DNA from: Pelagibacteraceae bacterium AG-345-O09 | GTDB lineage: Bacteria > Pseudomonadota > Alphaproteobacteria > Pelagibacterales > Pelagibacteraceae | DNA: 64,000 nt | Direction: 5' to 3' | Assembly: GCA_003281725.1 (NCBI GenBank) | Contig: QCBC01000001.1 | Location: 62,001-126,000 of the forward strand | In this document: positions 2 to 55,117 of the stretch, one piece after another | How positions within the stretch are numbered: position 1 is the stretch's first letter | Layout: the number at the start of each line of letters is the position of its first letter | Notes under the pieces: generated by a model | Databases searched by the model: none | What the model saw: the letters and a program-made list of their open reading frames with translations, nothing else | Told to the model about the DNA's origin: nothing | Position numbers and translations under genes: made by a program

Positions 2-334
2 ATAGTATTATTTATCATTTTTTTTATAGCTGCATTTTATGAAGAAAGAGAAAATTTTATAGATTTTCTAATGCAAGCAGGTTTCATTACTTTAATTCTA
101 AATATAACAATGATGATCGTGGCCTATTACCTTAGTAAAACTTTTGCCTCAGGAATAAAACAACAAAAATGTATTACTTTAGAATGTGGATTACAAAATG
201 GTACTTTAGCGATATTTGTTTCTACACAAATATTTGGTACAGATATAATCTATATAACTCCAACAGCTGCTTATGCTTTAATTATGTACATCACTGGTTT
301 TATATTTGTTTTTCTTTTAAAAAATAAAGTTTAA
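2..334 (+). CDS. Bile acid:sodium symporter (BASS) family transporter, C-terminal part (5' truncated by window)
   Basis: Frame stays open upstream of the listed ORF to the window edge; hydrophobic helices with 'LECGLQNGTLAIFV' typical of BASS proteins. Confidence 0.7.
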   Translation: MVLFIIFFIAAFYEERENFIDFLMQAGFITLILNITMMIVAYYLSKTFASGIKQQKCITLECGLQNGTLAIFVSTQIFGTDIIYITPTAAYALIMYITGFIFVFLLKNKV

Positions 335-2775
335 TTATTTTTAAAATTTGTTTGTTTTAAAGATTTGCTGATTGATTCTATTGGATATTTCTTTTTTTCT
401 ACCTCAATAAATAAGTTCTTATTTTGAAGTTCTTCATTAGATAAATCATTATTGATATATCCAAATACTAAATTCTTTTTAAAATTAAATGAATAGTTTC
501 CAGATGTTGATCTTCCTATAATTTTATCATCAATATAGATAGGTTCATCATGGAGTAATAATGGTTTTCCTGGTTCACTTTCTTTTAAAGTAAACATTGA
601 AAATCTAGTTTTAAATTTGTTTTGTTTAATTTTTTCAAGGGCTTGTTTACCTATAAAATCTACATCTTTTTTATTGCTAATAGTAAAAGCTAAACCTGCT
701 TGATACTGGTTTTCTTCAGGGGAAATATCATGCCCCCAATGTAAAAATCCGCTTTCCATTCGCATAATATCCATTGCATGCATTCCACAATTAGAAAGAT
801 TAAAATCTTTACCTTTTTCTATAAGTAATTCGTATATTTTTTTTGCATCTTTAAGATCTACATATAGCTCGTAGCCTAATTCACCTACATATGATAATCT
901 TTGTGTCCAGATTTTAACACCATCAATTGTAATAAACTTTGCAAATCCAAATTTAAATTGATCATTTTCAAAATTATCTTCGCTTAATGTTTTGAGTAAA
1001 TCTCTACTTTTTGGACCAAACAAACCAAATACACATAAATCATCTGTAATATCTTTTAACTCAATATTTTTTGAAAGATGTTTGTTAATATGAAATTTAT
1101 CTCTCTCTCTTGTTGCTGCAGAACTGATTATTCTAAAATGATTTTTATCAACACATACAACTGTTAAATCAGTCTCTATTCCACCATCTGAATTTAACAT
1201 ATGTGTATAGACACATTTACCAGGCTCATTTTTAATGTTTGCAGTACAAATTTTCTGCAGTTCTTGATGTGCTTTATCTGATTTTATTTCAAACTTAGAA
1301 AAAGGAGTTAAGTCAAATAAACCAACATTTTTAAGTGTATTATTTGTTTCATATTCAGCAGATGGATACCAGCTTTGATAATTATAACTATATTCATACT
1401 CAGCCTTTTCTCCATCTAGAGCAAACCACATAGGTCTTTCATAGCCACCTGAAACACCAAAACATGCACCAAAACTTTTTAGATTATCATGATGAGGTAA
1501 AGTTTTAATATTTCTAGATGTTTTATGCTGCTTAAATGGCCAATGCATTCCATACAAATCTCCTAAGGTCTCTGTAATCCTTTTTTTAATAAAACCCAAC
1601 TCCGAATGAAATTTTTGAAATCTTTTTATATCGTAGCTAAAAATATCTTCATTAATGTGGCCAGTCATTAACCATTCTGCGGTAACTTTACCAACGCCTC
1701 CTCCACTCCCTATTCCAATACTATTTAACCCACAACAAACAAAAAAGTTTTTAACTTCTGGCACTTCTCCTAATAATGTATTTGTATCAGGTGTAAAAGA
1801 CTCTGGTCCTGAAAAGAATTTTCTAATACCAGCAGACTCTAAAACTGGAAATCTTTTAATAGCAGAGGCTAAATAAGGTTCAAAATGTTCAAAATTCTCT
1901 TGAAACTCACCAAAAGAAAAATCTTCTGGTACTTTGTTTGTCTTATCCCAGGCGGGAATAGAATTTCCCTCAAAAATACCAACTAATATTTTACCTGCAT
2001 CCTCTTTAATATAAGTTCGATTATCGAAGTCTCTAATTACAGGTAATGTTTTAGACAAATTTTCTATTGGTTCAGTAATAATATAAAAGTGCTCCGCTGG
2101 ATAAAGTGGGATACTTACTCCAGCTTTTTCTCCAATTTGTCTTGACCACATTCCAGATGCTAAAACAATATATTCACATTCAATTTTTTGACCATTAACT
2201 TTTACTCCTGAGATTTTTCCATTTTTAGTTAAAATTTCATCTACTGGAGATTTTTCAAAAATTTGTGCTCCCTCTTTTCTCGCAGCTTTAGCTAACATAT
2301 GAGTAACACCTGATGGATCAGCAGCACCATCTCCGGGCATTAAAATTCCTCCAATAACTTCATCGGTATTAATAATTGGATAATCTTTTTTAATTTGATT
2401 TTTATCTAAAATTCTTACATCAACATCATAAAGTTGTGCAGTTGTTGCTTGTCTTTGAAGTTCTTGCCATCTTCCTTTGTTTTGAGCAATAGAAAGTGCA
2501 CCGTTTAATCTTAAACCTGCAGAATGATCAACTTCCTTTTCAAGTTTTTTATATAAATCTAATGTATATTTTCTTATTTTTGTTATTGCAGCTGTTGGAC
2601 CTAATTGACTTACCAATCCTGCTGCATGCCATGTTGTTCCTGATGTTAACTGATCTCTTTCTAAAAGAATCGTATCTTTCCAACCAAATTTTGCTAAATG
2701 ATAAGCAACAGAACAGCCTACTACACCACCCCCAATAACAACAACCTTAGTGCTACTTGGTAGTTTTTTTTCCAT
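331..2775 (-). CDS. FAD-dependent oxidoreductase with C-terminal GcvT domain (dimethylglycine/sarcosine dehydrogenase-like)
   Basis: N-terminal GGGVVGCSVAYHLA Rossmann motif, 'SGTTWHAAGL' motif, C-terminal aminomethyltransferase fold; 814 aa. Confidence 0.9.
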   Translation of the reverse strand: MEKKLPSSTKVVVIGGGVVGCSVAYHLAKFGWKDTILLERDQLTSGTTWHAAGLVSQLGPTAAITKIRKYTLDLYKKLEKEVDHSAGLRLNGALSIAQNKGRWQELQRQATTAQLYDVDVRILDKNQIKKDYPIINTDEVIGGILMPGDGAADPSGVTHMLAKAARKEGAQIFEKSPVDEILTKNGKISGVKVNGQKIECEYIVLASGMWSRQIGEKAGVSIPLYPAEHFYIITEPIENLSKTLPVIRDFDNRTYIKEDAGKILVGIFEGNSIPAWDKTNKVPEDFSFGEFQENFEHFEPYLASAIKRFPVLESAGIRKFFSGPESFTPDTNTLLGEVPEVKNFFVCCGLNSIGIGSGGGVGKVTAEWLMTGHINEDIFSYDIKRFQKFHSELGFIKKRITETLGDLYGMHWPFKQHKTSRNIKTLPHHDNLKSFGACFGVSGGYERPMWFALDGEKAEYEYSYNYQSWYPSAEYETNNTLKNVGLFDLTPFSKFEIKSDKAHQELQKICTANIKNEPGKCVYTHMLNSDGGIETDLTVVCVDKNHFRIISSAATRERDKFHINKHLSKNIELKDITDDLCVFGLFGPKSRDLLKTLSEDNFENDQFKFGFAKFITIDGVKIWTQRLSYVGELGYELYVDLKDAKKIYELLIEKGKDFNLSNCGMHAMDIMRMESGFLHWGHDISPEENQYQAGLAFTISNKKDVDFIGKQALEKIKQNKFKTRFSMFTLKESEPGKPLLLHDEPIYIDDKIIGRSTSGNYSFNFKKNLVFGYINNDLSNEELQNKNLFIEVEKKKYPIESISKSLKQTNFKNN

Positions 2776-34270: not shown

Positions 34271-35890
34271 CTACATATTTCCATATTTAGGACCGCCACC
34301 ACCTTCTGGCGTAACCCAATTAATATTTTGAGAAGGCTCTTTAATATCACAAGTTTTACAGTGAATACAATTCTGCGCATTGATTACAAATTTATTTACT
34401 TCATTTTCTTTCTGAATTTCATATACGCCTGCTGGACAATATCTTTGCGCAGGTTCATCAAATTTTTCTAAAGTATAGCTAATTGGTAAATTTGGATCTT
34501 TTAATTGTAAATGTACAGGTTGATTATCTGAATGATTAGTTCCTGTTAAATAAACTGAACTTGTCTTATCAAAAGTAATTACATTATCTGGCTTTGGATA
34601 ATCAATTTTTGGCATTTCATTTGCAGGCTTTAAAGTTTCGTGATCTGCATGTTTGTGCTTAAGAGTAAATGGTAATTTGCCTCTAAATAAGATTTGGTCT
34701 ATTCCTGTAAAAATAATACCTAATGTTAATCCCCAACTAAAACTCGGCTTTACATTCCTAGCTTTATATAATTCTTCATGTAACCAACTATTTTTAAATT
34801 TTTCTTCAAAGATTGATAAATCTTTTTTATCCTTTATATGTTCATGAATTGCTTCTGCTGCAATAATTCCACTTTTCATTGCTGTGTGTGATCCTTTAAT
34901 TTTTGGCATATTCAATGTTCCAGCGTCACACCCAACTAATAGCGCACCTGGCATAAACATTTTAGGTAAACTTTGAAATCCTCCCTCAATTAAAGCTCTA
35001 GCTCCATAAGAAATTCTTTTTCCACCTTCAACAATTTTTTTAATTGCAGGATGAGTTTTAAATCTTTGAAATTCATCAAATGGAGATAAATGTGGATTTT
35101 TATAATCCAAACCAATGACATATCCTAAAAAAACCTGCTTATTTTCAGCATGATAGATAAAACTTCCACCATATGTATTTTTATCTAGCGGCCATCCTGC
35201 GGTGTGCATTACCATTCCTTCTTCATGATTTTTCTCATCTATTTCCCAAATTTCTTTAAAACCAATACCATATTGTTGAGGATCTTTGCCTTTATCTAAT
35301 TCAAAATTTTTAATTAGCTGTTTTCCCAAATGACCTCTACAACCTTCAGCGAAGACTGTTACTTTACCTAAAAGTTCAATACCTGATTCAAAACTATCTT
35401 TTTTATTTCCTTCTTTATCTATACCCATGTCTTGAGTTGCTACTCCTTTAACAGAGCCATCCTCGTTATATAAAATTTCACTAGCTGGGAACCCTGGAAA
35501 AATCTCAACACCTAATGTTTCAGCTTGTTCAGCAAGCCATCTGCATAAGTTTGCAAGACTAATGATATAATTTTTATGATTTTGTTGAACCGAGGGTAAA
35601 AGCCATGTTGGCCAGCTTAATGATTTTGTTTTTCCTAAAAATAAAAATTTTTCTTTACTAACTTTAGTTTTAATAGGTGGGTTTAATTCTTTCCAAGTAG
35701 GAATTAATTCATCTAATGCTCTAGTCTCAAAAACATTTCCACTCAAAATATGCGCACCTATTTCTGATGCTTTTTCTAGTAAACAAACATTTAAATTTGA
35801 ATCAAGCTGTTTAAGTTTAATAGCTGTTGATAGACCTGATGGTCCACCACCTATTATTACAACATCATATTCCATCTTCTCTCTGGACAT
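34271..35890 (-). CDS. Electron-transfer flavoprotein:ubiquinone oxidoreductase
   Basis: FAD motif 'DVVIIGGGPSGLSTAIKL'; C-terminal 4Fe-4S 'CIHCKTCDIKEPSQNINWVTPEGGGGP'. Confidence 0.96.
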   Translation of the reverse strand: MSREKMEYDVVIIGGGPSGLSTAIKLKQLDSNLNVCLLEKASEIGAHILSGNVFETRALDELIPTWKELNPPIKTKVSKEKFLFLGKTKSLSWPTWLLPSVQQNHKNYIISLANLCRWLAEQAETLGVEIFPGFPASEILYNEDGSVKGVATQDMGIDKEGNKKDSFESGIELLGKVTVFAEGCRGHLGKQLIKNFELDKGKDPQQYGIGFKEIWEIDEKNHEEGMVMHTAGWPLDKNTYGGSFIYHAENKQVFLGYVIGLDYKNPHLSPFDEFQRFKTHPAIKKIVEGGKRISYGARALIEGGFQSLPKMFMPGALLVGCDAGTLNMPKIKGSHTAMKSGIIAAEAIHEHIKDKKDLSIFEEKFKNSWLHEELYKARNVKPSFSWGLTLGIIFTGIDQILFRGKLPFTLKHKHADHETLKPANEMPKIDYPKPDNVITFDKTSSVYLTGTNHSDNQPVHLQLKDPNLPISYTLEKFDEPAQRYCPAGVYEIQKENEVNKFVINAQNCIHCKTCDIKEPSQNINWVTPEGGGGPKYGNM

Positions 35891-35913: not shown

Positions 35914-36867
35914 TTATTTTTGTATAGTGTTTAATTTGTTCAATTCCTCTAAGAATTGAGGAAGTGCTTCAAAAAGATCAGCTTCAAGACCATAATCAGC
36001 AACACTAAATATTGGTGCTTCGCCATCTTTGTTAATTGCAACTATTATTTTACTTTCTTTCATTCCAGCTAAATGTTGAATAGCTCCAGAAATACCTACT
36101 GCAATATATAAATCTGGCACTACAACTTTACCTGTTTGCCCAACTTGATGATCATTACTTATATAACCTGCATCAACAGCTGCTCTAGATGCACCAATTG
36201 CTGCATTTAGTTTATCAGCTAGTGAAGTAATTAACTTAAAATTATCACCACTCTGCATTCCTCTTCCACCAGAAACAACTACTCTAGCGGTTCCAAGTTC
36301 AGGTCTATCAGATTTAATTTCTTCTCTTTTTATAAATTTTGTTTGTGCAAATTCCTCACCTGCCTCTGATTTTTCAATAGTTGCAGATCCACCAGAACTT
36401 TCACAAGGATCAAATGAAGTAGGTCTTATTGTTACACACTTTTTGTTGTCTTTACTTTTTACAGTAGCAAAAGCATTACCAGCATAAATTGGTCTTAAAA
36501 AAGTATCATTAGACACAACTTTTGTAATATCACTAATTTGAGAAGTATCTAAAGCTGCAGCAATTCTTGGCATTAAATTTTTACCAAAAGTATTTGCAGA
36601 AGAAATAATGTGTGAATAATTTTCTGATAATTTTACAATTACTGGGGCAAAATTTTCAGCAACAAAATTTTCATAGTGAGGAGCTTCAACTTGGATAACT
36701 TTTTTTATTAATTCTAATTCTGAAAGTGCTTTTGCTGCTTCTCCACATTCATGACCTATAATTACTGCATGAACATCTATATCTATTTGAGAGGCTGCAG
36801 TTGCAGCATTAAGAGTAAAAGGTCTAAGTTCTTTATTATTATGTTCTGCTATTAATAAAACTGACAT
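35914..36867 (-). CDS. etfA: Electron-transfer flavoprotein alpha subunit
   Basis: 'ARVVVSGGRGMQSGDNF', 'LYIAVGISGAIQHLAGMKESKIIVAINKDGEAPIF'. Confidence 0.97.
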   Translation of the reverse strand: MSVLLIAEHNNKELRPFTLNAATAASQIDIDVHAVIIGHECGEAAKALSELELIKKVIQVEAPHYENFVAENFAPVIVKLSENYSHIISSANTFGKNLMPRIAAALDTSQISDITKVVSNDTFLRPIYAGNAFATVKSKDNKKCVTIRPTSFDPCESSGGSATIEKSEAGEEFAQTKFIKREEIKSDRPELGTARVVVSGGRGMQSGDNFKLITSLADKLNAAIGASRAAVDAGYISNDHQVGQTGKVVVPDLYIAVGISGAIQHLAGMKESKIIVAINKDGEAPIFSVADYGLEADLFEALPQFLEELNKLNTIQK

Positions 36868-37617
36868 TTATATTACCTTTGCTTCATTTTTTAATTTCTG
36901 AACTAATTCTGCCACACTAGACACTTTTATACCTGCTTTTCTTTTAGGTGGTTCTTCAACCCTAGTTTGCTCGATTCTTGGAGTTGTATCCACTCCTAAA
37001 TCTGACGCATTTATTTGTTCAATCGGCTTTTTCTTGGCTTTCATTATATTTGGTAATGACGCATATCTAGGTTCGTTTAATCTTAGATCACATGTAACGA
37101 TTGCTGGAACATTTATTTCTATTGTTTCTAACCCCTCATCGATTTCTCTTGTAACTTCCAAAGATTTATCTTTAATCTCAATTTTAGATGCAAAAGTCGC
37201 TTGAGGCCAATTAAGTAATGCACTTAGCATTTGACCAGTTTGATTACAATCATCATCAATTGCTTGTTTGCCCATAAAAACTAAATCTGGTTTTTCTTTT
37301 GCAACTATTTTTTGTAAAAGTTTAGAAACTGCTAGTGGTTCTAAAATCCCTTCAGTCTTAACAAGTATACCTCTGTCTGCACCTACTGCTAAGGCTTTAC
37401 GTACCGTCTCTTGAGCTTTCTCTTCTCCAATGCTAACAGCTATAACTTCAGTAGCTTTTCCAGCCTCTTTAATTTTTACCGCCTCTTCTATAGCATTATC
37501 GTCTGGTGGATTGGTAGACATCTTAACATTATCAGTGACTACACCTGTGTTATCTTCTTTAACTCTTATTTGAACGTTGTAATCAATGACTCTTTTTACT
37601 GCGACTAAAATTTTCAT
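36868..37617 (-). CDS. etfB: Electron-transfer flavoprotein beta subunit
   Basis: '[20 protein letters not shown]', '[23 protein letters not shown]'-type signature. Confidence 0.97.
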
Positions 37618-40049
37618 TAGGCTCTCAACAATTTGTTTTCAACATCGTATGGGCTTTCTTCTAAAATTGTAGCCTCGTACATTTTTCCTAATATATCAAC
37701 TTTAAGTTTTTCACCAACATTAGCAAGATCAGGTTTCACCATTGCTAAAGCTATAGATTTATCAAGTCTAAATCCATATTCTCCACCTGTAGCTCTTCCT
37801 ACGACTTTGTCATCTTTATAAATAGGATTGTTTCCTAAAACATCTGAGTCTGTTGTATTGTGAACTTCTAGTGTAACTAATTTATTATCAAAACCTTTTT
37901 CTCTCCATTTGTTTAAAGCCTCAAGCCCAATGAAATTACCTTTGTTAGGATGAATAAATCTATCTAAACCAGACTCGTAAGGTGAATACTCAATAGATAA
38001 TTCAGTACCAACTAATTTGTAAGATTTTTCAAGTCTCAAGCTATTCATTGCTCTTATTCCAAAAGGTTTAATTCCCAAATCTTTTCCTGCTTCCATTAAC
38101 TTATCAAATATATGGTTTTGATATTCAATCGGATGATGTAGTTCCCAGCCTAATTCACCAACAAAGTTTACTCTCATAGCATTGACAGGAGCATATCCAA
38201 CATTAACATTTTTTGCTGTTAACCATTTAAAATTTTCGCTTGAAAAATCGTCTACAGAAACTTTTTGCACTAATTTTCTTGCTTTTGGCCCTGCCACAAC
38301 AAGTACTCCAGTACTATTCGTTAAGTCTTCGAATATAACTGATCCATCTGTAGGCATCCACTTTTGTATCCAGTCATGGTCTAATCTTAAATTTGCACCC
38401 GCTGAAACAAGATAATATCTATTTTCAGCTTCTTTCATAATTGTAAATTCTGAATGAACACCACCCTTAGTATTAAGAGCATGACATAAATTTATTCTTC
38501 CAATTTTTTTTGGAAGCTTGTTAGCCACTAAATAATCTAAAAATTCCTCTGCTTTTGGTCCTCTTATTCTACATTTAGCAAAAGCTGTCATATCTAAAAG
38601 GCCAACATTCTCTTTTACGTTTTGACATTCTTTTTTTATAGCATCAAACCATTTGGATCTTCTAAAAGACCAATCATCTTTTTGTTCCATACCATCAGTC
38701 GCAAAAAAGTTTGGTCTTTCCCAACCAAATTTTTGTCCGAATACTGCTCCTAAATTTTTCATTCTTTCATAACATGGCGATGTTCTTAAAGGTCTTGCAG
38801 CTGGTCTTTCTTCATCTGGATAGTGAGTAATGAAAACATGGCTGTAAGCTTCTTCATTTTTAGCTTTTAAATAAGATTTAGTTGCATAGTTTCCATAACG
38901 TCTTGGCTCAACACCTAACATATCAATGGTTGGTTCTCCATCTACTATCCATTCTGCTAATTGCCAACCAGCTCCACCAGCAGCAGTAATTCCAAAACTA
39001 TGACCTTCATTAATCCAAAAATTTTTCAAACCCCAAGCTGGTCCAACTATAGGATTTCCATCTGGTGTATAACAAATCGCACCATTATAAACTTTTTTAA
39101 CTCCTACTTCACCAAAAGCAGGAACTCTATGTATTGCTCCTTCTATGTGTGGGGCAAGTCTATCTAAATCTTCTTGAAACAATTCATATTCTGAACTTTT
39201 AGATGGACCTTCTACATAACAAGCAGGAGCACCATCTTCGTAAGGACCTAATATTAGTCCACCAGCCTCTTCTCTCATATACCATCTACTATCACTATCT
39301 CTAAGCACTCCCATTTCAGGAAGACCTTCTTTTTTTCTTTTTTGAATTTCTGGATGAGGTTCAGTAACAATATATTGATGTTCAACAGGAATTACTGGAA
39401 TATCTAATCCAACCATCTCCCCAGTTTGTCTTGCAAAGTTTCCTGAACAAGAAATTATATGTTCACATTCAATCGATCCTTTGTCTGTTTCAACAATCCA
39501 TCCCTCTTTATTTTGCTTCATTGCAATCACTGTTGTGTTTCTGTAAATCTCGGCTCCCATATTTCTTGCACCTGTAGCAAGTGCTTGGGTCAAATCTGCA
39601 GGCTGGATATAGCCATCTTCTGGATGTTGAATAGCACCTACTAAATCATCAGTATGACATAAAGGCCAAATTTCTTTTACTTGTTGAGGTGTTAAAAATT
39701 TGACGTCAACACCAATAGTTTTAGCTACCCCCGCATATTGATGGTATTCATCCATTCTATCTTTTGTACTTGCTAAACGAATATTTGATACAACACTAAA
39801 TCCAACATTCTTTCCTGTTTCATCCTCTAATTTTTTATATAGATCGACTGCATATTTATGTAATTGACCTACAGAGTAGCTCATATTGAAAAGTGGTAAT
39901 AATCCAGCAGCATGCCAAGTGGATCCAGAAGTTAATTCTTTTCTCTCTACAAGAACTACATCAGACCACCCTTTTTTAGCTAAATGATAAAGTGCACTGA
40001 CTCCTACTACTCCACCACCTACAACTACCACTTTTGTTTTAGATTTCAT
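37617..40049 (-). CDS. Dimethylglycine/sarcosine dehydrogenase-like FAD + GcvT protein
   Basis: '[21 protein letters not shown]', '[12 protein letters not shown]'; 810 aa; adjacent to etfB. Confidence 0.93.
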
Positions 40050-41641: not shown

Positions 41642-42034
41642 TTACTTATTTTTTTTAATATTTTTTAGAGTTGCAATATCAGCTTTTAACTCATGTGGTG
41701 CAAGTGGGTCAAGAAAAGGATTGCGGTAGAGTTTATCATGACTTTCAACTCCAATTTCAATTTCACAATCAGTTTTTGGTCTAGCAACACATAAAACAAT
41801 ATAACCATTGTTAATTTGTCTATTGTTTAGAGCTACTTGAGAACGTTGGTCTACTTCACCATCAATAAGTTTTGCTGCACAAGTTATACAGCCTCCATAT
41901 TCACAACCGTAGGGAAGATCAACTCCTTGGGTACGTAATTCTTGGAGTAAGGGTTTTCGGTCTGAGACCTCAAAAGTTTTATTTTTACGATTGATAATAG
42001 TAATTTTCTTTACAGCCATATATCGCTTGTACAA
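41642..42034 (-). CDS. 2Fe-2S ferredoxin (plant type)
   Basis: 'LPYGCEYGGCITCAAKLIDGEVDQRSQVALNNRQINNGYIVLCVARP' (CxxxxCxxC...C). Confidence 0.93.
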   Translation of the reverse strand: MYKRYMAVKKITIINRKNKTFEVSDRKPLLQELRTQGVDLPYGCEYGGCITCAAKLIDGEVDQRSQVALNNRQINNGYIVLCVARPKTDCEIEIGVESHDKLYRNPFLDPLAPHELKADIATLKNIKKNK

Positions 42035-43386
42035 TCTCCGCCCGGATATCTACTTTCATGACATCTACTCGGACCATTTGGTTCTTTACCAAAATCAACT
42101 ATAAAATCTTTATTGATTTTCATACCACCATTTTCAACATCGCAGTCAATCATAACCATAGCACCGCCTTGTGTTCTTATGTCAGGATAAAATTGATTAT
42201 CCCAAGTTGAAAATAGAGAAGTAGTTACGTACATTCGTTTACCATCTAAAGATAATTGGTACATTTGGGGACCACCTGCAATTTTAACTCCATTTATAAT
42301 TGGTGCTTTGCCTAAAAGTCCACCAATCCAAACTTGTCCAGTTAATTTTGGTTTGTGTGGGTCTGTTATATTGTATTGTCTCATGTCTCCATGAAGCCAG
42401 TTATTTAAATAAAGATATTTATCATCCATTGAAACAAGAATTGCAGACATTACTCCAGGAATAGGTATAGGCCAATCGGGGTGAGGTTCATTATTGACAT
42501 CTATAATTTTTTCCCACTCCCACTTTTCTTCTTTGGATTTCCAAAAATGAATAACATTCGAACTGAGTGCAGCCCCACAAAATCCATGAGTGCTATCAGG
42601 ATCATGCTTAAATTTTACTTCCAATGGTATTAGACCATCTTCACCAAGATACATTGTTTCAATTGGTTTTTTTTTTTTAAAATCCCAGATATGAAGCCTT
42701 CGTCCATATTTTAAATGACCGACTTCTTCTAAATCAAAGCCTGGCATAAAGGTATTGGGTGCAGCCCATTCTGAACTTACCATCACATTATGACGTGGCT
42801 GATACCAAAAATCGTAGCTAAAAGGGATATCTCCCATTGAGTTTTCCCATCTTCCAATAATTTCAAAATCTTTATTAAGATGCAAGTATCCTCCAGGAGC
42901 CTCACCTTTGGCATTACCAAGAAAAGAAATAATAATTTCAGATCCTAGACAATGAACTGTATGTGGTCCTGACAAATTAGTTTTAGATTTTATTACTGAG
43001 CCTTTAATCACTTTGTGAATTTTTGGAGCAAATGGATCTGTTGCAGTATCTATTACATGAATATTATTTGATCTAACACCTGGTACTAAAAGAAATTTTC
43101 TGCTCATTCCTACATCCTCGTGACATGAAGAGCATGCATTCCATCCCATGTGATGTAATTCATCTCCAATCCCTGGCATTTCTAAACGATGAATAACTTT
43201 TGAATAAGTTGGACTATCTGGATCAACATCGACAGTTGCAAGATAATCAGGTTTTTGAATTCCTGTCCCAGTGTAAATAGCTATTGTATACAAAAGTTTT
43301 TCATTAGGTGCTTTAATTGCCTCAGATGGACTAGCATAGCCAGGCCCACAACAAGAATTATTTGTTTTTTCTAAATCATTAATCAT
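42010..43386 (-). CDS. mtoX: Selenium-binding-protein (SBP56) family; methanethiol oxidase-like
   Basis: 'SCCGPGYASPSEAIKAPNEKLLYTIAIYTGTGIQKPDYLATVDVDPDSPTYSKVIHRLEMPGIGDELHHMGWNACSSCHED'; 458 aa. Confidence 0.9.
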   Translation of the reverse strand: MINDLEKTNNSCCGPGYASPSEAIKAPNEKLLYTIAIYTGTGIQKPDYLATVDVDPDSPTYSKVIHRLEMPGIGDELHHMGWNACSSCHEDVGMSRKFLLVPGVRSNNIHVIDTATDPFAPKIHKVIKGSVIKSKTNLSGPHTVHCLGSEIIISFLGNAKGEAPGGYLHLNKDFEIIGRWENSMGDIPFSYDFWYQPRHNVMVSSEWAAPNTFMPGFDLEEVGHLKYGRRLHIWDFKKKKPIETMYLGEDGLIPLEVKFKHDPDSTHGFCGAALSSNVIHFWKSKEEKWEWEKIIDVNNEPHPDWPIPIPGVMSAILVSMDDKYLYLNNWLHGDMRQYNITDPHKPKLTGQVWIGGLLGKAPIINGVKIAGGPQMYQLSLDGKRMYVTTSLFSTWDNQFYPDIRTQGGAMVMIDCDVENGGMKINKDFIVDFGKEPNGPSRCHESRYPGGDCTSDIWL

Positions 43387-44153
43387 TTATTTTTCCAAAT
43401 CGGTTTTCTTTTTTCTAGAAATGCAGAAATTCCTTCCTTTGCATCCATTGCCATCATATTAATTGTCATCATTTTACTAGTGTAGGCGTAAGCTTTTCTT
43501 AAAGGCATCTCTAACTGTTTATAAAAAGTTTGTTTACCAATTTTAATAGTCAAGTTTGATTTTGAAGCAATTTTTTGGGCTATTTTTAAAACTTCGTTGT
43601 TTAATTTTGATTTTGAAAAACAATCATTAATCAGACTAATTTCTTTTGCATAATTTGCTTTAATAGGTTCTCCGGTTAGTAACATTTTCATCATTGGTTT
43701 CCTGCTTATCTTTCTGCTAACCGCTACCATTGGAGTGCTACAAAATAATCCAATATTTACTCCTGGTGTAGCAAATAAAGCATCTTTAGTGCTGTAAGCT
43801 AAATCACAACTTGCAACTAACTGACATCCTGCAGCATAGGCAGCACCATGTACTTTAGCAATTACTGGTTTTTTTCCCTCAACTATTTGCAGCATCAATT
43901 TTGAACACAGGTTAAATAATTTTTGATATTTTTCTTTTTTCTTTAAACCTCTTACCTCTTTTAAGTTATGTCCTGCACTAAATCCTTTCCCTGCTCCCTC
44001 AAGAATAATTACTTTAACATTCTTATCATTATCTAATTTTTTAAAAACTTTAATTAGATCATTTAAATTTTTAAAAGATAAAGAGTTATAAGTTTTAGGT
44101 TCATTAATGATTACCCTTGAAATATTTTCTTTATTAATAACTTTAATATTCAT
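43383..44153 (-). CDS. Crotonase-fold protein, ECHDC3-like
   Basis: 'AGKGFSAGHNLKEV', 'GAAYAAGCQLVASCDLAYSTKDALFATPGVNIGLFCSTP'; 4-nt overlap with the MtoX-like gene. Confidence 0.88.
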   Translation of the reverse strand: MNIKVINKENISRVIINEPKTYNSLSFKNLNDLIKVFKKLDNDKNVKVIILEGAGKGFSAGHNLKEVRGLKKKEKYQKLFNLCSKLMLQIVEGKKPVIAKVHGAAYAAGCQLVASCDLAYSTKDALFATPGVNIGLFCSTPMVAVSRKISRKPMMKMLLTGEPIKANYAKEISLINDCFSKSKLNNEVLKIAQKIASKSNLTIKIGKQTFYKQLEMPLRKAYAYTSKMMTINMMAMDAKEGISAFLEKRKPIWKNK

Positions 44154-45046: not shown

Positions 45047-45775
45047 ATGAATTTTTCATTAGAAATTGGACCCAAAACTGATCTAGAAACACTCCCCCCA
45101 GTGAGTGATGTTTATATTACAATGTTGCCTGGTGGTGATTATAAAGAGACTGCTCAAAAAGCGATTGAGCTTATTAAAAGAGGGTTCAATCCTGTGCCTC
45201 ATTTTCCAGCTAGATCTATGCAAGATGAAAAAGAATTAAAAGATTATGTTTCAAGATGTAAAGATGGAGGAGTTAAACAAGCTTTGATTATTGGAGGTGG
45301 TAGAGAACCAACGGGAAAATTTGATAGCTCATTTCAACTTTTAGAAACAGGTTATTTTGAAAAAATGAAGATAGGAATTGCTGGACACCCTGAGGGGAGT
45401 CCTGATATATCCGAATCAAATTTAGAAAAAGCTATGATAGATAAAAAGCCTTATGCTGATTATATTGTAACCCAATGGTTAATGGATCCTCAGCCTATAA
45501 TAGACTTTATTTCTAAACAAAGCGTACCAGTGCATGTGGGAATTACTGGCCCTCTTAAAATATCTAGCTTAATAAAATTTGCTAATATTGTTGGAGCAAA
45601 AAATTCCTTAAATTTTCTTAAATCTAATTTTAATAAGGCGTTAGATTTATTAAAACCTAAAGACCCTAATGATTTAATTGGGAAAGTTAAATCGCATACT
45701 GATTTCTTCCACATTTATACATTCGGCGGCTTGAAGGAAACTAACAAGTGGTTGAAGGAGAATAGTTATGTCTAA
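45047..45775 (+). CDS. Methylenetetrahydrofolate reductase (MetF)-like protein, short
   Basis: 'FSLEIGPKTDLETLPPVSDVYITMLPGGDYKETAQKAIELIKRGFNPVPHFPARSM'; TIM-barrel MTHFR pattern, 242 aa. Confidence 0.85.
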   Translation: MNFSLEIGPKTDLETLPPVSDVYITMLPGGDYKETAQKAIELIKRGFNPVPHFPARSMQDEKELKDYVSRCKDGGVKQALIIGGGREPTGKFDSSFQLLETGYFEKMKIGIAGHPEGSPDISESNLEKAMIDKKPYADYIVTQWLMDPQPIIDFISKQSVPVHVGITGPLKISSLIKFANIVGAKNSLNFLKSNFNKALDLLKPKDPNDLIGKVKSHTDFFHIYTFGGLKETNKWLKENSYV

Positions 45776-47126
45776 AGAATTTGACTATACTAAATTAAAA
45801 CATGTTACCTCTGTTGATCAATCTGATCGAGAAGTACCATACAATTTAAGACAAAGTGGGCCAACGAAAGTTGAAATGTTAATTTCAACAAGAGTAAGAA
45901 AATCACCTTATTGGCATTTATCAATGCAAGCAGGTTGTTGGAGAGCAACTGTGTACAATCGTATTTATCACCCGAGAGGATATGTAAAACCAGAAGATGG
46001 TGGAGCAATGGTCGAATATGATGCAATTGTAAATCATGTAACAATGTGGAACGTTGCTGTTGAAAGACAAATTAGAGTTAAAGGTCCAGATGCAGAAAAA
46101 TTTACAGACTATGTAATAACAAGAGATGCAACTAAGATCTCTCCCATGAGAGCAAGATATGTAATTTTATGTAATGCATATGGTGGGGTTTTAAATGATC
46201 CAATTCTTTTAAGAATTTCTAAAGATGAATTTTGGTTCTCTTTGTCTGATTCAGATATTGGTATGTATTTACAAGGAGTAAATGCTGATCAAAGATTTAA
46301 TTGTACAGTTGAAGAAATAGATGCTTGTCCTGTTCAAATTCAAGGTCCAAAGTCTAAGGCTTTAATGAAAGATCTTTGTGGAGATCAAGTAGATTTCGAT
46401 GATATGCCATTTTATGGTCTAGCTGAAGTTAAGGTTGGTGGTAGAAGTTGTGTTATTTCACAATCAGGTTTCTCAGGTGAAGCGGGGTATGAAATATATT
46501 TAAGAGATGCAACTTTATATGCTGAAGATATGTGGAATGCAGTATTAAATGCAGGAAAAAAACATAAACTAATGGTTATAGCGCCAGCTCACCACAGAAG
46601 AATTCAAGCAGGAATTCTTTCTTGGGGACAGGATATGGATCAGCAACATAATCCTTTCCAATGTAATTTAGGTTACCAAGTTTCACTATCTGGTAAAGGA
46701 GAGTGGAATAAGAAAGCTGATTATGTTGGTAAAGCTGCTCTTGAAAAAATGAAAGATGAACTTAAAGCTGGAAAAAAACCTTATAAACTACAATTGGTAG
46801 GTCTTGAATTGGGAGGGAAACCAATTGAAGATTATGCACCAGATTTTTGGTTAATCTCAGATGAAGATGGAGGAGACCCTGTAGGATTCTTAACATCTCC
46901 TTGGTATCACCCAGAGAAAAAAACTAATATTGCAATGGGATATGTCCCTTTTGATGGAACATTAAATCCAAATGGATTTCCTAAGGGTAAGGTTGGTACT
47001 AAGTATAAAGTTCATCTACCTGAAAAATATTCTAACAAAGCGGGTACACCAGTAGATGCAGTAATAGTTGATATTCCATTTAAGGAATCATTTAATGCAA
47101 ACACAAGAGAAGTTGTAAAAGGCTAA
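45768..47126 (+). CDS. GcvT-family THF-dependent methyltransferase, DmdA-like paralogue
   Basis: 'MWNVAVERQIRVKGPDAEKFTDYVITRD', 'SGFSGEAGYEIYLRD', 'ILSWGQDMDQQHNPFQCNLG'; overlaps metF-like gene by 8 nt. Confidence 0.87.
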   Translation: MSKEFDYTKLKHVTSVDQSDREVPYNLRQSGPTKVEMLISTRVRKSPYWHLSMQAGCWRATVYNRIYHPRGYVKPEDGGAMVEYDAIVNHVTMWNVAVERQIRVKGPDAEKFTDYVITRDATKISPMRARYVILCNAYGGVLNDPILLRISKDEFWFSLSDSDIGMYLQGVNADQRFNCTVEEIDACPVQIQGPKSKALMKDLCGDQVDFDDMPFYGLAEVKVGGRSCVISQSGFSGEAGYEIYLRDATLYAEDMWNAVLNAGKKHKLMVIAPAHHRRIQAGILSWGQDMDQQHNPFQCNLGYQVSLSGKGEWNKKADYVGKAALEKMKDELKAGKKPYKLQLVGLELGGKPIEDYAPDFWLISDEDGGDPVGFLTSPWYHPEKKTNIAMGYVPFDGTLNPNGFPKGKVGTKYKVHLPEKYSNKAGTPVDAVIVDIPFKESFNANTREVVKG

Positions 47127-53431: not shown

Positions 53432-55117
53432 ATGAGTGAAGTAAAATCAGATATCCAAATAGCAAGAGAAGCTAAGATGCAACCAATCAACGATATATTG
53501 GCTAAAGTCAATGTACCAGATGAAAGCACTGCTTTTAGTCCCATGGGAAGACATATTGCAAAAATTAACTTGGAGTATCTTAATACATTAAAAGATAAAC
53601 CTGATGGAAAACTAATTTTAGTTACCGCTATAACTCCAACACCTGCTGGTGAGGGAAAAACTACCACATCTGTAGGTTTAAATGATGGATTAAATAAAAT
53701 TGGAAAAAAATCTATTGTTTGTTTGAGAGAGCCAAGTTTAGGTCCTTCATTTGGTATGAAAGGTGGTGCTGCTGGAGGTGGTTTTGCCCAGGTTGTGCCA
53801 ATGGAACAGATAAACTTACATTTCACAGGCGACTTTCATGCAATAACATCAGCTCACAATCTTTTATCTGCATTAATTGATAATCATATTTATTGGGGTA
53901 ATAAATTAAATATAGATGTGAGAAGAATTGTTTGGAAGAGAGTTATGGATATGAATGATCGATCCCTTAGATCTATTAATATAAATTTAGGTGGCGTGGC
54001 AAATGGTTTTCCTAGAGAAGATGGGTTTGATATAACCGTTGCTTCTGAAATAATGGCTATTTTTTGTTTAGCAAATAATCTTGAAGATTTAGAAAAAAGA
54101 ATTGGTAACATTACAGTGGCTTATTCAAGAGAGAAGAAACCTATTTTTGCAAAAGATTTAAAAGCTCAAGGTCCTATGACTGTTTTACTTAAAGATGCAA
54201 TTAGACCAAATGTTGCTCAGACATTAGAAAATAATCTTGCGATTATTCATGGAGGACCATTTGCAAATATTGCTCATGGTTGTAATTCAGTTATAGCAAC
54301 TAAAGCTGGTCTAAAACTTGCAGACTACGTTGTAACAGAAGCTGGGTTTGGAGCTGATTTGGGTGCTGAAAAATTTCTTGATATCAAATGTAGAAAATCA
54401 GATCTTAAACCAAGCTGTGTTGTAATTGTTGCAACAATTAGAGCACTTAAAATGCATGGAGGTGTAGCAAAAGATGATTTAAAAAATGAAAATGTTGATG
54501 CACTTGAAAAAGGATTAGTGAATCTTAAAAGACATGTTGAAAACGTTAAAAAATTTGGCTTACCCGTTGCAATAGCTATAAATCATTTCATTAAAGATAC
54601 TGATAAAGAAGTAAGAGCTTTAATAAGTTTTTGTGATGGTTTAAATATTAAAGCTAGTCTATGTACTCATTGGGCAAATGGTGGTGAAGGTACAAAAGAC
54701 TTAGCAACTCTTGTAGTTGATTTATGTGAAAAAAATGATGCAAAATTTAATTTTTTATATGAAAATAAAACTCCTCTATTTAAAAAGATAGAAACTATTG
54801 CTAAAGAAATTTATAGAGCTAACGAGGTTATAGCAGACACTAAAATTAGAAAACAACTCAAGGGTTTTGAGGAAGCTGGATACGGCGATCTACCTATTTG
54901 TATTGCAAAAACTCAATATAGTTTTTCTACAGACCCAAGTCTCAAAGGAGCTCCAACTGGACATGCTTTACCTTTAAGAGAAATAAGACTTTCATCAGGT
55001 GCTGAATTTATAGTTGTTGTTTGTGGGGCTATTATGACAATGCCCGGCTTACCAAAAGTTCCTGCTGCTGACTCAATCAAGTTAAATAAAAAAGGTGAAA
55101 TAGAAGGTTTATTTTAG
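53432..55117 (+). CDS. fhs: Formate-tetrahydrofolate ligase
   Basis: '[27 protein letters not shown]', '[47 protein letters not shown]'. Confidence 0.98.

Follow-up and report, generated by a model that had tools for sequence, protein, structure and literature searches.

The window, a stretch of 64,000 nt from Pelagibacteraceae bacterium AG-345-O09 (genome G000), contains two overlapping forward-strand genes, one encoding a MetF-like flavoprotein and the other a GcvT-fold protein that we refer to as AMT. The features discussed here are as follows:

331 to 2775, minus strand: second DMGDH/SARDH-type flavoprotein with a fused GCV_T domain, 814 aa (domain search)
34271 to 35890, minus strand: ETF-ubiquinone oxidoreductase (PF05187, PF21162; order as in locus L123)
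35914 to 36867, minus strand: ETF alpha subunit (PF01012 and PF00766; order as in L123)
36868 to 37617, minus strand: ETF beta subunit (PF01012; order as in L123)
37617 to 40049, minus strand: DMGDH-type flavoprotein with a fused GCV_T domain, 810 aa (DAO, FAO_M, GCV_T, GCV_T_C)
45047 to 45775, plus strand: MetF-like flavoprotein, 242 aa, S6MTHFR type (match to 7xg9, shortfall against TIGR00676)
45768 to 45775, plus strand: 8-nt overlap of the MetF-like and AMT genes (8 nt in 80 of 80 SAR11 loci)
45768 to 47126, plus strand: AMT, 452 aa, candidate glycine betaine:THF methyltransferase (GCV_T domain, own clade, invariant residues, neighbourhoods)
53432 to 55117, plus strand: formate-THF ligase, fhs (PF01268, 885 bits)

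The initial annotation, made from the sequence, described 242-aa and 452-aa reading frames overlapping by 8 nt, three sequence motifs in the longer product (including QHNPFQCNLG) and an fhs gene 6 kb downstream; we find both frames and all three motifs, and fhs starts 6.3 kb 3' of the pair. The public loci nearest to the pair are from Pelagibacteraceae, with protein identities of 93-99%. Among SAR11 comparison loci, which were fetched by similarity, metF is present in each of the 79 whose upstream sequence is long enough, and all 80 loci measured have an overlap of exactly 8 nt. The AMT gene has a median dN/dS of about 0.036 in the SAR11 loci, with synonymous sites partly saturated, and is under strong purifying selection. 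The constancy of metF and of the overlap, together with the low dN/dS, argues that the pairing is not due to chance, and the overlap likely reflects translational coupling of the two genes.

The pair is very probably orthologous to SAR11_1264 and SAR11_1265 of Ca. Pelagibacter ubique HTCC1062, to which we matched it through the description by Sun et al. 2011 of a metF gene (SAR11_1264) adjoining a DmdA-related aminomethyltransferase of unknown substrate (SAR11_1265; PMC3160333). It was speculated there that SAR11_1265 takes the second methyl group in DMSP degradation (PMC3160333), and under sulfur limitation the two genes changed in concert in one experiment (PMC5069961). In the literature after 2011, we found no substrate assignment for SAR11_1265, and our literature search returned neither a betaine demethylase of the AMT kind nor a homarine assignment involving GcvT or MetF proteins. 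The initial description of the module as uncharacterised thus holds for the substrate, which the 2011 paper left unassigned, but not for the pair as a find, which has been known since that year; what is new here is the genomic context of the orthologues, which points to a substrate.

AMT carries a GCV_T domain (PF01571, 135.7 bits in a profile search) and scores well below the cut-offs of the models for characterised relatives. Against the DmdA model NF009133, it reaches 228.2 bits (curated cut-off 410), and the shortfall is similar in kind for the GcvT models NF001567 (147.5/300 bits) and TIGR00528 (126/235.85 bits), for DesA (42.3/800 bits) and for Tdm, the two-domain TMAO demethylase (142.7/1100 bits, with only the C-terminal part matching). 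The LigM model gives 32.6/580 bits, and LigM-type aromatic demethylation was rejected for AMT on these scores. The nearest characterised enzyme is DmdA (3tfh, E=4e-41), relative to which AMT is longer at both ends, as had been noted at the outset: its N-terminus has 31 additional residues (S9 of DmdA corresponds to S40), its C-terminus extends further, and there is an insert at about residues 77-82. An AlphaFold2 model of the 452-aa protein, built from a shallow SAR11-only alignment, has a pLDDT of 39.8 and a pTM of 0.32.

In a tree of 49 rows, 17 sequences from Alphaproteobacteria and haloarchaeal plasmids form an AMT clade with a support of 100/100, separate from the DmdA clade (likewise 100/100). 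Its neighbours in the tree are DmdA and a group of DmdA-like paralogues, with GcvT and the DMGDH/Sox domains at a distance, so that the protein falls outside both characterised GcvT and DmdA, the placement that the initial annotation had proposed to check. Y131, D144, E242 and R278 of AMT, equivalent to DmdA Y95, D108, E204 and R239, are invariant in 17/17 sequences of the clade; these are folate-contact positions, and their retention in the alignment answers the further question, raised at the same time, of whether THF-binding positions had been lost. Model scores, tree and kept residues agree with the original view of a protein resembling a THF-dependent demethylase that is neither DmdA nor GcvT. 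The position of the DMSP-contacting Trp197 of DmdA is occupied by Phe throughout the clade (17/17), though it is Tyr in two roseobacter DmdA sequences. Matched through its spacing to E204 and Y206, Trp197 is the W171 of an earlier study, which reported that a subgroup of its non-DmdA homologues carries Phe instead of this Trp (PMC7487153); this subgroup presumably corresponds to the present AMT clade.

The best PDB match of the MetF-like protein is S6MTHFR (7xg9, E=1.6e-32), whereas the Thermus MTHFR matches at E=0.006, and the protein scores only 23.4/293.7 bits against the ordinary MetF model TIGR00676. In the alignment, its C-terminus has the FGG motif common to S6MTHFR in place of the ordinary FYTLNR. 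S6MTHFR is the SYK-6 partner of LigM and is reported to oxidise 5-methyl-THF (PMC12585457), which makes the analogy to LigM/MetF/LigH clusters suggested by the initial annotation an apt one. The MetF-like protein is the only MTHFR that we find in the window genome (77.7% complete) and in its relative G207 (99% complete), and Met_synt_B12 and MetE domains were found in neither. These two genomes would thus have no known methionine synthase to use 5-methyl-THF, and SAR11 has been stated to be without MetH, MetE and the split synthase (PMC12478193). Without such synthases, SAR11 must dispose of 5-methyl-THF in some other way. The idea that MetF runs in reverse is therefore graded as probable: judged by its nearest relative and by the genomes around it, the protein probably works oxidatively, from 5-methyl-THF to 5,10-methylene-THF. 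Four MetH-bearing genomes (G184, G258, G028 and G247) have an ordinary MetF and, elsewhere, a second divergent MTHFR-family protein.

Within the window, the 810-aa flavoprotein and the ETF and ETF-ubiquinone oxidoreductase genes lie 5-11 kb upstream of the pair on the opposite strand. Homologues of the FAD part of this flavoprotein, with 64-84% identity, occur within about 4 kb of an AMT orthologue at six loci (L123, L129, L130, L131, L132 and L240), and fhs homologues lie near an AMT orthologue in L132, L233-L235 and L120. Window positions 42010-44153 hold a crotonase gene and an SBP56/methanethiol-oxidase-like gene that share 4 nt.

AMT orthologues are found in Alphaproteobacteria, Gammaproteobacteria and haloarchaeal plasmids; the DMGDH-type proteins among their neighbours are named by domains, not by activity. 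L124 and L126 have an operon of soxB-soxD-soxA-soxG-DMGDH-MetF-AMT, and L237 has the same genes. L123 reads AMT-DMGDH-ETF beta-ETF alpha-ETFQO, while AMT adjoins DMGDH and sox in L130, L131 and L240, and L132 combines sox/AMT-MetF-fhs-DMGDH. Three loci of one genus (L233-L235) contain AMT, fhs, an L-serine ammonia-lyase and a DMGDH-type flavoprotein; MetF is present at two of these loci, and all three also encode the glycine-betaine regulator GbdR above its curated cut-off (498-512 versus 480 bits). As these genomes fall within the phylum yet not within the class, and encode GbdR, we infer that they are Gammaproteobacteria. On haloarchaeal plasmids, MTHFR, SHMT, two dimethylglycine-oxidase-like flavoproteins, a BCCT transporter, a threonine/serine ammonia-lyase and folate genes occur near AMT in varying combinations. 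In H. marismortui, a 2011 genome survey had already reported that BCCT transporter genes have dimethylglycine-oxidase-like genes in their vicinity (PMC3102087). Five of these plasmid loci (L117-L120 and L207) carry a folate C1 island round the AMT orthologue, again of varying composition, drawn from fhs, folD, glyA, folP/pabB, DHFR and formate dehydrogenase.

Counted by locus, DMGDH or sox genes lie within about 10 kb in 18/28 AMT loci versus 2/14 loci of the sister paralogues (Fisher p=0.003). Collapsed to families, the same contrast is 8/15 versus 2/10 (p=0.21); 8/15 families would be very unlikely under an assumed background rate of 5-10%. About half of the AMT lineages are without DMGDH/sox-type neighbours in the stretch read, some of the contigs being short, and we find none in the stretches read of L125, L127, L128, L232, L238, L239 and L241.

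These neighbourhoods narrow the methyl donor, which the initial annotation had given as unknown, and point to glycine betaine. We infer this donor, the direction of the MetF reaction and the directness of the transfer from sequence and context. In the proposed pathway, AMT would pass one of the methyl groups of glycine betaine directly to THF without cobalamin, yielding dimethylglycine and 5-methyl-THF, and the co-translated S6MTHFR-type MetF would oxidise the latter to 5,10-methylene-THF. The one-carbon unit would then proceed to CO2 via FolD, fhs and formate dehydrogenase, while dimethylglycine would be converted to glycine by DMGDH- and SARDH/SoxBDAG-type enzymes. The methyl groups of 14C-glycine betaine are indeed known to be released as CO2 by SAR11 (PMC3160333). 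AMT very likely demethylates some onium compound in a THF-dependent manner, with MetF acting oxidatively as its partner, and we regard glycine betaine as the probable substrate of AMT, with moderate confidence. As a general proposition, that the family moves the glycine betaine methyl straight to THF without cobalamin or oxygen across Alpha- and Gammaproteobacteria and haloarchaea, we favour the idea by a slighter degree.

Of 13 genomes with AMT, one has MTTB, and the Rieske oxygenases scored against the GbcA model all stay below its cut-off, although divergent GbcA/CntA-like Rieske proteins are present in most of the 13. In G075 and G286, which have the AMT-DMGDH-sox cluster, searches for MTTB and for a stand-alone PF02574 protein came back empty, and no Rieske protein tested there attains the GbcA cut-off. 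As MTTB and a free-standing homocysteine methyltransferase are both missing, AMT is the best candidate for the first step in these two genomes. In SAR11, where BHMT has been published as the enzyme for the first glycine betaine methyl (PMC12478193), the AMT step may be redundant. The sole PF02574 protein of this SAR11 genome (L135, 1471-2376) scores 65.7/338 bits against the alphaproteobacterial BHMT model and is not clearly a BHMT.

The foremost alternative to glycine betaine is that AMT demethylates another quaternary ammonium compound, such as proline betaine, carnitine or choline derivatives, homarine or trigonelline, with a Rieske oxygenase handling glycine betaine and DMGDH and sox the later N-methyl groups. 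A GbcA/CntA-like Rieske gene lies divergently upstream of metF in 63/74 SAR11 loci, although it is absent from the window, and similar genes occur in L134 (11461-12690), in L236 and inside the Haloarcula marismortui cluster. Glycine betaine demethylation could be the work of this neighbouring oxygenase itself; the SAR11 protein is below the GbcA cut-off, and its closest solved structure is the carnitine monooxygenase CntA (E=4e-34). However, no such Rieske gene is detected in the stretches read of L124/L126, L130/L131 and L233-L235, where the remaining genes cover the dimethylglycine and sarcosine steps of glycine betaine breakdown, joined in L233-L235 by GbdR. We therefore consider a different quaternary amine possible but unlikely.

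A role in DMSP catabolism, either on the second methyl group (from MMPA) or on DMSP itself as a divergent DmdA, is more doubtful still. DmdA being the closest characterised enzyme, the SBP56/MtoX-like and crotonase genes 1-4 kb away in the window and the published proposal for SAR11_1265 (PMC3160333) all speak for it. Yet AMT lies outside the DmdA clade, short of the DmdA model and with Phe in place of Trp197, a position at which two roseobacter DmdA have Tyr; the MtoX-like gene is present in only 6/56 SAR11 loci; the crotonase is just 26% identical to a roseobacter DmdD; and the context in other lineages is that of osmolyte amines rather than DMSP. On chemical grounds, a thioether such as MMPA should also be a poor methyl donor, which counts against this role. 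Least probable is that AMT, for all its co-location with DMGDH and Sox, is no methyltransferase and serves as a folate-handling accessory taking formaldehyde or methylene groups from these flavoproteins, a candidate that we rejected because the DMGDH proteins bear a fused GCV_T domain of their own and because the product would be methylene-THF, leaving the paired MetF superfluous.

Methyl transfer from glycine betaine, the reading that we prefer, has partial counterparts in four known systems. The SAR11_1264/SAR11_1265 pair shares the organism group and the adjacent metF-AMT arrangement, but the substrate guessed for it was the second DMSP methyl, whereas glycine betaine is what the gene neighbourhoods in other lineages suggest. 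DmdA (3tfh) shares the GcvT fold, the folate-contact residues and the transfer of an onium methyl to THF giving 5-methyl-THF, and differs in its clade, in lacking the N-terminal extension and insert, in its Trp197 and in its gene context. LigM and S6MTHFR of Sphingobium lignivorans SYK-6 likewise couple a THF-dependent demethylase to an oxidative MTHFR, but AMT is far from LigM by score, and its context is osmolyte-related where that of LigM is aromatic. For MtgBCD and MetF2 of Ruegeria pomeroyi, the same net reaction followed by oxidation by a second MetF has been proposed (PMC12478193), but that system needs cobalamin and an MTTB-type subunit, rare as MTTB is among the AMT genomes.

The published routes for the first demethylation of glycine betaine use BHMT, the oxygenase GbcAB or the cobalamin-dependent MtgBCD, and the BHMT route is tied to homocysteine and methionine demand. 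If true, direct transfer to THF would add one more to these three, and would free the use of glycine betaine by SAR11 from the methionine demand of the homocysteine-linked route. It would also provide a job for a SAR11 gene pair left without a substrate since 2011 and explain why a cell with neither MetH nor MetE keeps a MetF homologue. Glycine betaine is a common osmolyte, SAR11 are the ocean's most abundant bacteria, and the pair is also found in salt-loving archaea. Finally, the DmdA/AMT-like genes of one 2.3-Mb genome (G016; loci L098, L108 and L115) number at least four, and one of them has both a MetF-like gene and a gene for a Rieske oxygenase as neighbours.
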